Source: Cyanobacteria bacterium SW_9_44_58 (GTDB taxonomy: Bacteria > Cyanobacteriota > Cyanobacteriia > Cyanobacteriales > Rubidibacteraceae). Taken from it: a stretch of 32,980 bases of DNA. Where the stretch lies: contig PXPI01000109.1 in the NCBI GenBank assembly GCA_003021905.1, positions 1 through 32,980 of the forward strand, in the 5' to 3' direction. Position numbers and translations under genes: made by a program. Of this stretch, positions 14,012 through 17,209 are shown in pieces; the stretch's first letter is position 1, and each line of letters begins with the position of its first letter. Below the pieces are notes generated by a model. That model was not told the origin of the DNA and did not search any database. It saw only the letters and a program-made list of their open reading frames with translations.

Positions 14012-17000
14012 TTAGCCTTCATAAGGAAATGATTCCGGGAACATACACTTGTCGCTATCACAGCCGCTAGGCCCTGCTTCTTCTCCTTCTCCTTGATCAT
14101 ACTTGAGCAAGGCAGCATGAAAATCGTCCATAGTCCGTCGTTCCTCTACTTCTTGCATTAGGCGATTGTACGTTGCTTCATCAATGGGTTCAAAGGGCAA
14201 ACGCGGGAAAGTCTGATAGGCATCAAAACGGGCCAATAAGGCAAAGGAAATGTATCCTTCATTGTTCTCAATTCCTTGATAAATCGCTTTGCCCAACTCC
14301 TCGATTTCATGTTCCCGAAGTTCCAGGGTGGCAGAAGTATTGTGGGTAACGTAATGTTTTTGCACCTGCATGGCAAAATCAAACTGCGCCAACACTGGAA
14401 ACTGCGCAATATCAATATCATCTGCCCCTGGTAAATCCGCCCAAGAAACCGCAACGGGAATTTCCACTAACCATTCTGTACAGCGGGAATCAAAGGGATC
14501 GTTGAGCAAGTTTCCGTCTTCATCTTTATCCGACTGGGAAGGAATGACATTATAGCCATAATCAATGCAAGCTAGCGCCACTGGATCGTTTTTGCCAAAG
14601 GTGACGCGACGAATAAACCGCACTGCTTTCGGCGGATGCCAACCGGGAGACGCGCCGGTTAATAAGGATTTGGTACCGCTGGGTTGGACAGTGGTGCATC
14701 GATTGGGACGTTTAATGCCATGCCTGTCGCAGTAATCCCAAACCGTTTCATGAACAATCTCCCGCCATTTCTCTAAATAGGCTTTTTCACGCTGTTTGAA
14801 CCGCTTTCCTTGTTCGGTATTGGGACGGCCTGCTTCCCACCAGCGCAACCATTCGACACCGAAGGCATGGACAAAGAAATCAAATAATCCGGTAAAGGAA
14901 ACACCAACAATCGGATCCAGTTCTCGACTGTACTGATAACGGGGTTCAACAAATTCATGATTGAGAAGGGCTGCCACCGATAATGCCCCTGCTTGGAACG
15001 CCTCTTTTTGTTCTTGTTCATTGTCAGGATCAATCTGATTTAAGTGGATTTCCGAAAGGTTGCAATGGAAGTTACTCCCAATAATTTCCCCGCAGTTATG
15101 AGCCACCAAGCCATTGGCATCAAAGCGATGAACTCCCGGAACCGTACAATCATAAACCGCTTCCACCCCATTGGGTTCAATATTGGCAACAGTTGCCGTA
15201 AATCGTTCTTGGAGTAAGTGGCACGCTTGTTCTGCTAAGGCATTGGCAAGTAAGGTACTGGTTTCTGGGGTACTCAAGCCGATGAGGTGTTGAAAAACAT
15301 GAAGATTGTCATCAGCAATTACCAGTTCATTTCGCAAGCAGGTTGATGCAATGCCTAACCGTAACAGCATCTGTTGCAGGGCTTGCAACTCTTCCCCGCT
15401 TTCTCGGACTAAAGTGAGACTAATCCCTTGATTGGGACGATTCTGCAGTATGGCCTCCGCAGAAAACAATCCTTGCAAGAATCCCAGATAAAAGTCATAG
15501 CTTCCTTGTTGTACCTGTTTGGTAATTGCGCAACGTCTTTCAGGGCGCGTTAACAACTGGGTTGTTCCCTGTTCTCTCTCTGCTTCTAGAACAGTAGAAG
15601 AAGGCGCTTCCGCTGCAATGTCGCCATAAAAACCAATTTCCCAACCTTGTTCAAAGTTGCCATGACCTTCCCAGGGACGAATATTGCGGTGATTGTGAAG
15701 CATCACGCGATCGCGCGGTTTGAGATTCTCCACTGCTACCCATTCCGTATATTGCTGTTTCTGGGTTTGCGCTGTTACTTTTAAGACTTGATGATTATTG
15801 GTTAACCGTAGGGTGTATCCTTCTTCTGTTGTTAACTTAACAAGGGGTTTGTTGCCGGTATAGAAGAACCCCTCCGGCGTTGTACTAAATAATTCCCCAT
15901 TGACATAGACACTGTGCTGAATGCCAATTAAATCTTTAACCTGTTTCGCCCCATATTCTGTGTGCACCCAAGTATCTGCAGTGACACAAGGATTTAGCCC
16001 GTAACGTTGCAGGCGGTGTTCCATCTCCTCATCAGAGATTTCTCCCTGACATTGATTCCTTAACCAAGTTTTCGCCTTCTCACTCCCTTCTGTGGTGTAG
16101 AGGCGCAGGAACTCCCGTTTCTTTTCTGCTGTATCTAAAAGATCCACATTAGCACGGGCAATTGCCTCGGGTGCATACTGAATTGCCCCTTCACCGGAAT
16201 AAAACTGACTGCGGACTGCTTCCACACATTCGGCTAAACTGGGTGAGGCGTGATAAACGCGCGTGTGATTAGCCATTCGCAGGGCGTCTCGTTCGGGATC
16301 AATGCGCCAGTTGCCATTTTCATCCGGTTGCCAGAGATTTTGCTTCAATAAGGGCGAATTAGCATCAAACTGTCTAATCCCTGCGCTCCTGCGAATATTG
16401 CCTGCTACAACAGTGGCAGCCGCTTCGTCAATTAATAAACAGCATTCCTCAGCATTGAGTTTTCGCCCTTGGGCACGGTTTAGAATCTTCGCTAAACGCG
16501 GATATAAGTCGGGAATTTTAATGGGATTGGCAACCCCGCCAAACCCTTTGAGGCGCTCTCCTGCCGGACGAACATGGCTGGGATCAATTTCAACATTGAT
16601 TTCTGTTGCTAATTCCTCATTGCTGGAAAGTTCCAACAGTGCCTGATACGACTGTACCCATCCCTCACGGGAATCGCCAATACAGATACTAACCTGTTGC
16701 GAGTTATTGATTTTAACTGTTGTTTCTTCTTGACGGGCTTCCGGCAAGACAGTACCAATTTCCCCGACAATTGAAACATTGAGGCGATTGCAAATTGCAG
16801 GGAGTTGGCTAATATGTTTTTCTTCTAAGACAGCACCCGTTCCACAGCCCATCATGGCTAAGTCCATCATCAAGCCAAAGGCGCGCCAATCCACCACATT
16901 AGTTGAAGTGCAATTATAAGCGCCGGAATAGTTGTTGGGCTGTTCTAGCCACTGAGTTCCCCCAACCCACAGCCAACGCCCTGCAGGAAGGCTTTTGAGG

Positions 17001-17209
17001 TTAGTCATCATTTTATTGAGAAGTTCGGCTTCTTCGTTTGTGAGTTGACCCAGTTTGACTAACCCGAAAAGGCAACGATCGCGCACTTGTTCCCATGTTT
17101 CTCGCCCGCCATCGCTCCGGCGGCTATAAGTCCGAAAGAAAACAGGATTCGCCACTGGTGCATTTTTCGGGAAATTTGTGGATTGTTGACGCTCAAGCTC
17201 TCTGACCAT
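14012..17209 (-). CDS. nrdJ: Adenosylcobalamin-dependent (class II) ribonucleotide reductase containing an intein
   Basis: The open frame is 1065 residues; without the intein (408-705) the enzyme is 767 residues. It converts ribonucleotides to deoxyribonucleotides using a thiyl radical made by adenosylcobalamin. Visible parts are NCTSTN (Cys100) and GCGTGAVLEE, NIRRSAGIRQF, the active-site NP/CGEI split by the intein (Cys706, Glu708), HCNLSEI, PSGTKSLLTGASPG, and the C-terminal redox pair Cys1050/Cys1055 (CDSDKC). These match the Cys layout of Lactobacillus RTPR. The reductase is useful without oxygen-dependent diiron. It is divergent from the PNPOx-like gene. Confidence 0.95.
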   Translation of the reverse strand: MVRELERQQSTNFPKNAPVANPVFFRTYSRRSDGGRETWEQVRDRCLFGLVKLGQLTNEEAELLNKMMTNLKSLPAGRWLWVGGTQWLEQPNNYSGAYNCTSTNVVDWRAFGLMMDLAMMGCGTGAVLEEKHISQLPAICNRLNVSIVGEIGTVLPEARQEETTVKINNSQQVSICIGDSREGWVQSYQALLELSSNEELATEINVEIDPSHVRPAGERLKGFGGVANPIKIPDLYPRLAKILNRAQGRKLNAEECCLLIDEAAATVVAGNIRRSAGIRQFDANSPLLKQNLWQPDENGNWRIDPERDALRMANHTRVYHASPSLAECVEAVRSQFYSGEGAIQYAPEAIARANVDLLDTAEKKREFLRLYTTEGSEKAKTWLRNQCQGEISDEEMEHRLQRYGLNPCVTADTWVHTEYGAKQVKDLIGIQHSVYVNGELFSTTPEGFFYTGNKPLVKLTTEEGYTLRLTNNHQVLKVTAQTQKQQYTEWVAVENLKPRDRVMLHNHRNIRPWEGHGNFEQGWEIGFYGDIAAEAPSSTVLEAEREQGTTQLLTRPERRCAITKQVQQGSYDFYLGFLQGLFSAEAILQNRPNQGISLTLVRESGEELQALQQMLLRLGIASTCLRNELVIADDNLHVFQHLIGLSTPETSTLLANALAEQACHLLQERFTATVANIEPNGVEAVYDCTVPGVHRFDANGLVAHNCGEIIGSNFHCNLSEIHLNQIDPDNEQEQKEAFQAGALSVAALLNHEFVEPRYQYSRELDPIVGVSFTGLFDFFVHAFGVEWLRWWEAGRPNTEQGKRFKQREKAYLEKWREIVHETVWDYCDRHGIKRPNRCTTVQPSGTKSLLTGASPGWHPPKAVRFIRRVTFGKNDPVALACIDYGYNVIPSQSDKDEDGNLLNDPFDSRCTEWLVEIPVAVSWADLPGADDIDIAQFPVLAQFDFAMQVQKHYVTHNTSATLELREHEIEELGKAIYQGIENNEGYISFALLARFDAYQTFPRLPFEPIDEATYNRLMQEVEERRTMDDFHAALLKYDQGEGEEAGPSGCDSDKCMFPESFPYEG
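15095..15988 (-). other. Intein in the ribonucleotide reductase, with degraded homing endonuclease
   Basis: Residues 408-705 of the precursor (298 aa) form an in-frame intein. Block A begins CVTADTWVHTEYG; block B has TNNH at 470-473; the C-terminal block runs VYDCTVPGVHRFDANGLVAHN, with the penultimate His704, terminal Asn705 and +1 Cys706. All residues needed for splicing are present. The middle has one LAGLIDADG-like segment, GFLQGLFSAEA (576-586), whose acidic pattern is altered, so the endonuclease is probably inactive and shortened. The insertion is directly before the catalytic cysteine in NPCGE. Confidence 0.93.

Follow-up and report, generated by a model that had tools for sequence, protein, structure and literature searches.

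RIR inteins have previously been described from Trichodesmium. In ribonucleoside-triphosphate reductases of the RTPR type, C408 is the radical cysteine and C419 a redox cysteine. The alleles rir1-b and rir1-g both occur in bacteria, with rir1-g present in Halothece sp. PCC 7418 according to PMC4071816. Inteins in general lie near active sites (mean 8.3 Å, versus 21.1 Å for other C/S/T sites; PMC3359363), and their use of active-site residues is already published. Here we describe a cyanobacterial intein whose +1 residue is the radical cysteine of a ribonucleotide reductase (RNR), apparently the only one in its genome.

The stretch that we analyzed (hereafter the window) comprises 32,980 nucleotides of contig PXPI01000109.1 from Cyanobacteria bacterium SW_9_44_58. 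Its reverse strand contains an open frame of 1065 residues (14012–17209) that combines an RTPR-type reductase with an intein. The host protein scored 765.7 bits against the NCBIfam RTPR profile (TIGR02505; cut-off 340.05), and its sequence confirms the assignment to the monomeric, adenosylcobalamin (B12)-dependent class II ribonucleoside-triphosphate reductases. Removing 298 residues from the precursor yields a predicted spliced enzyme of 767 residues in which Cys706 becomes Cys408. This residue aligns with C408 of Lactobacillus leichmannii RTPR (PDB 1L1L) and mature Cys418 with its C419, while Cys100 was assigned as the C119 equivalent by motif only. The alignment bears out the original prediction that Cys706 is both the +1 residue of the intein and the thiyl-radical cysteine of the enzyme.

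Several profiles matched within the insert: Pfam Intein_splicing (PF14890; E 6.5e-9, 36.2 bits, cut-off 35.8), Pfam LAGLIDADG_3 (E 1.6e-8), and the NCBIfam models intein_Nterm (TIGR01445; E 3.7e-6) and intein_Cterm (TIGR01443; E 1.8e-4). The class 1 residue set is complete and entirely standard (C1, T63-N-N-H66, D280, H297-N298, C+1), and an insert at the identical junction in 39 homologous genes is far beyond chance. Sequence evidence thus confirms a predicted ordinary class 1 intein between Pro407 and Cys408 of the mature reductase. The boundaries and length given in the original prediction were exact, with the profile matches falling inside them and the Cys+1 codon immediately adjacent (Table 1).

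Table 1. Features of the intein-bearing reductase gene (positions in the window).
Feature	Position	Strand	Details and basis
N-extein	15989..17209	(-)	Residues 1-407, ends ...GLNP; translation and TIGR02505
Intein, 298 residues, C1...HN298	15095..15988	(-)	Precursor residues 408-705; profiles and 38-homologue alignment
Intein Cys1 codon, putative first splicing nucleophile	15986..15988	(-)	Invariant in alignment
N-terminal splicing segment	15629..15988	(-)	Intein residues 1-120, block B TNNH (63-66); boundary approximate
Degenerate homing-endonuclease segment	15203..15628	(-)	Intein residues 121-262; LAGLIDADG_3 match; boundary approximate
Second LAGLIDADG motif, damaged	15452..15481	(-)	FLQGLFSAEA (relatives FLRGLFDADG); alignment
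C-terminal splicing segment	15095..15202	(-)	Intein residues 263-298, Asp280 (block F), His297, Asn298; boundary approximate
Cys+1 codon	15092..15094	(-)	Precursor Cys706 = mature Cys408; putative splicing nucleophile and thiyl-radical cysteine
C-extein and stop codon	14012..15094	(-)	CGEI... to reductase C-terminus

Loss of the endonuclease appears to distinguish the window intein from most of its relatives. We extracted and aligned 39 homologous inteins at this one junction, including the window copy; most are 357–386 residues long and carry motifs such as WLLGSLVGDGSL and FLRGLFDADGSVQG. A simple pattern test found both motifs kept in 29 of the 39 and both lost in six, the latter spread over four genera. 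An active homing endonuclease has two LAGLIDADG motifs with catalytic Asp. In the window intein the first is deleted and the second lacks the catalytic Asp, as is also the case in two congeneric genomes (G002 and G005). The original prediction had noted an altered LAGLIDADG-like motif, which our alignment corroborates, but it had not recorded that another motif, kept in relatives, is wholly missing. Judged from these motifs, the homing endonuclease looks dead, and the intein is very probably unable to cut DNA or copy itself any more, as the earlier suggestion of lost homing anticipated. Repeats of SPLTPLATAVESR and PPYFPPNRGDKGG in the degenerate G002 intein (L033:2445-3392) resemble inserted short repeats.

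The genus of the window genome contains empty, degenerate, and intact-motif alleles of this intein. Our sample consisted of six genomes, two of them drafts of 210 and 420 contigs. The degenerate intein is present in three, namely the window genome (G000), G002, and G005, the last placed in this genus by whole-genome search and having an intein 70% identical to that of the window. G004 has an intein with both motifs intact, while G001 and G003 encode the enzyme with nothing at the NP^C site. The damage shared by the degenerate copies points to one origin. However, the extein tree joins G002 to G001 and G004 to G003 and rejects any grouping of the three degenerate carriers into one clade (AU p 0.0025), and with it a single endonuclease loss passed on vertically within the genus. 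This conflict between shared damage and extein phylogeny suggests that alleles moved or were replaced within the genus; with six genomes to draw on, homing into an empty site is one possible route. The coexistence of the three allele types fits the known homing cycle (PMC8966425). In G001, the RNR frame has a frameshift upstream of the empty site (L032, ~2600-2650), reflecting either sequencing error or real damage.

Across the order, 41 of 391 genomes sampled had this intein allele (matches with E below 1e-40) and 218 had the RNR C-extein; most RNR genes in the order therefore lack this intein. Related inteins interrupt many phage RNRs at the same NP^C junction, which makes phages plausible carriers of this family. 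Among viral contigs, a scan with the single protein returned no relative, whereas an alignment-based scan returned 38; no copy of the intein was found in the plasmids searched. The window intein is thus a member of a large, widespread, and already known family at one site, NP^CGEI.

This site also hosts other insertions. In G299 (L160), the junction is occupied by an intein that looks distinct, NP^CHAGDTLVSTNQG...ITHN^CGEI. In ~59 genomes among the matches listed, the C-extein match starts later by two codons, and its frame spans no more than ~355–370 residues. We read 12 of these genes as DNA, all from other cyanobacteria (L145, L148-L151, L153, L154, L156-L158, L161, and L164), and found 269–896 bases between NPCG and EIIG, inserted at a position 6 bases downstream from the point of intein insertion, with U before and G last. 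Rfam gave no match to these insertions, even at a loose threshold. Their ends (5' exon U, terminal G) nevertheless fit group I introns, as does the precedent of such an intron in the RIR gene of Nostoc punctiforme (Meng et al. 2007, as cited in PMC12702839). Together, the distinct-looking intein and the intron-like insertions 6 bases away point to the site as a shared target, and a shared conserved target accounts for the clustered insertions better than separate regulatory needs would. Close to one RNR gene split by intron-like sequence lie five tandem copies of the NsiR1 sRNA (L149:40-696).

In relatives, further inteins interrupt the enzyme elsewhere, at FH^CNLSE, which precedes the C419 equivalent, and at GNIRR^SAG. 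Those before the C419 equivalent in G002 and G005 (L033, L036; FH^CVAGDT...TGQ^CNLSE) end in Gln, not Asn. A Thermobifida phage P318 intein at FN^CWH (L089:2240-5197) also ends in Gln; judged by motif, its insertion point probably immediately precedes the redox cysteine that corresponds to RTPR C119. Insertion before C408, C419, and probably C119 would fit inteins settling in conserved motifs that supply the +1 cysteine. In viral contigs L125 and L126 and in a Microcoleus phage (L087:1989-4874), inteins seem to be shifted by one residue, to a point after the catalytic cysteine, with junctions NPC^...HN^SEI and NPC^...NN^CEI. Further inteins of the window genome itself are a mini-intein in DnaX (L083; VIDE^CLTGD...HN^CHML) and, in a nucleotide-sugar epimerase/decarboxylase-like protein (L085), a large intein.

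We consider it highly probable that the window intein is a class 1 homing intein of the LAGLIDADG type whose homing cycle has reached its decay phase but which still splices, and that it occupies its site because that site is a conserved target in an essential motif. We infer the splicing chemistry and the reason for the location as follows. After translation, Cys1 would start an N-S shift, and the enzyme's own Cys408 would serve as the +1 nucleophile in transthioesterification. Asn298 would then cyclize, and an S-N shift would release the Cys408 thiol, leaving the NPCGEI loop intact; until then the precursor is likely inactive as an enzyme. The location would reflect conservation of the DNA target within an essential motif, one that also provides the +1 cysteine and from which inexact deletion of the intein would be lethal.

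The requirement for splicing follows from gene content. A search of the genome (2.94 Mb, 99.7% complete) with the full protein gave one match, and neither the class I small subunit (PF00268) nor NrdD (PF13597) was found in it. PF02867 likewise had no match, but this model misses the RTPR there too, and the lack of a match is therefore not enough by itself to rule out a divergent second enzyme of class II. The RTPR-type enzyme thus appears to be the only RNR of the genome. Since no second RNR was found, all deoxynucleotide synthesis appears to require maturation of the intein-bearing RTPR, and with no other reductase available the intein must keep splicing.

This dependence could be taken to suggest that the intein has been retained as a post-translational switch, in which splicing, and with it deoxynucleotide supply, is paused when Cys1 or Cys+1 is oxidized or binds a metal. 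One cysteine would serve both splicing and radical chemistry in the sole RNR found, so that a single oxidation event would halt maturation and catalysis together, and in three genomes of the genus the intein survived loss of its endonuclease. There is also a precedent in mycobacterial DnaBi1, where H2O2 induces a disulfide that blocks splicing (PMC6195587). Moreover, Cys281, adjoining the block F Asp280, is invariant in the cyanobacterial alignment, but many phage homologues have another residue there, and the splicing residues of the window intein are all canonical. The absence of the intein from most relatives, including two congeners, further weakens the regulatory idea, and persistence of the intein needs no benefit because its exact loss is a rare event. 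Retention for such a role is therefore very unlikely, and so is the fuller proposal, in which a dead-endonuclease intein with a dual-use cysteine is kept to gate the only RNR by redox state or metals. The suggestion in the original prediction that splicing controls deoxynucleotide supply is unsupported; the position and the history of the intein are both in keeping with a homing element whose target is conserved.

Alternatively, the degenerate endonuclease may still nick DNA, bind DNA, or aid splicing, thereby keeping part of its mobility or function. The recognizable LAGLIDADG_3 match and the structure prediction are compatible with this idea. An AlphaFold2 model of the intein, built with 19 relatives alongside the window sequence (mean pLDDT 84), best matched solved inteins with a LAGLIDADG domain (7qsu, 7qss, and 7qst) and covered mini-inteins such as NpuDnaB (TM 0.80 by target length); in this model the intein has both a Hint splicing fold and an endonuclease fold. 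However, model residues 135-159, the former place of the first motif, are of very low confidence (almost all with pLDDT <50), and the deleted motif and the missing catalytic Asp speak against residual activity. A remnant dN/dS of 0.32, obtained where computable for the window, speaks for retained function; dS was saturated in most pairs, so we used relative dN alone to judge selection. Pairing the window with the degenerate carriers G005 and G002 gave a dN of 0.388–0.494 in the remnant, as compared with 0.105–0.135 in the N-terminal splicing segment, 0.055–0.062 in the C-terminal splicing segment, and 0.076–0.182 in the exteins. The remnant/C-extein dN ratio was ~5 in the degenerate pairs versus 2.0–3.4 among G004, G006, and G007, whose motifs are intact. 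The splicing segments are under selection and conserved like the enzyme, while the endonuclease remnant is relaxed, and residual function of the remnant is very unlikely. That the gene is a pseudogene, or that the insert fails to splice, is scarcely credible given a frame open over its entire length, every splicing residue in place, splicing segments and exteins conserved between genomes, and no other RNR found in a nearly complete genome.

If the window intein is indeed a homing intein in decay, it offers a clean case, seen during that phase of the cycle, of an element placed at the residue on which an essential enzyme most depends. The empty, degenerate, and intact-motif alleles within one genus also form a natural set in which to test the host cost or gain of a worn-out intein.

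Described systems resemble this locus in different respects. Like the window intein, Mycobacterium smegmatis DnaBi1 (PMC6195587) lacks a functional endonuclease (HEN-less/HEN-dead), lies in an active-site motif, and has a +1 residue that functions in the mature protein. However, DnaBi1 belongs to class 3, interrupts DnaB, and has a +1 Ser and a proven redox response, whereas the window intein is by sequence a class 1 intein with a +1 Cys. The Aquifex aeolicus RNR R2 intein (PMC8772380) likewise splits an RNR active site and has a +1 Cys, but it is a large intein with a LAGLIDADG endonuclease, located between iron ligands of a class I small subunit. PhoVMA (PMC8966425; PDB 7qst), our third-ranked structural match, also keeps a LAGLIDADG fold without catalytic residues, although it resides in another host protein and shares 14% sequence identity with the window intein. 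The N. punctiforme RIR intron (Meng et al. 2007, cited in PMC12702839) is a self-splicing element of the same cyanobacterial gene, but it splices as RNA and is unrelated. Also close are the RIR1/NrdJ inteins found in cyanobacteria, phages, and other bacteria, which interrupt the same enzyme family and include related inteins at the same NP^C junction; relative to these, the window copy has lost its endonuclease.
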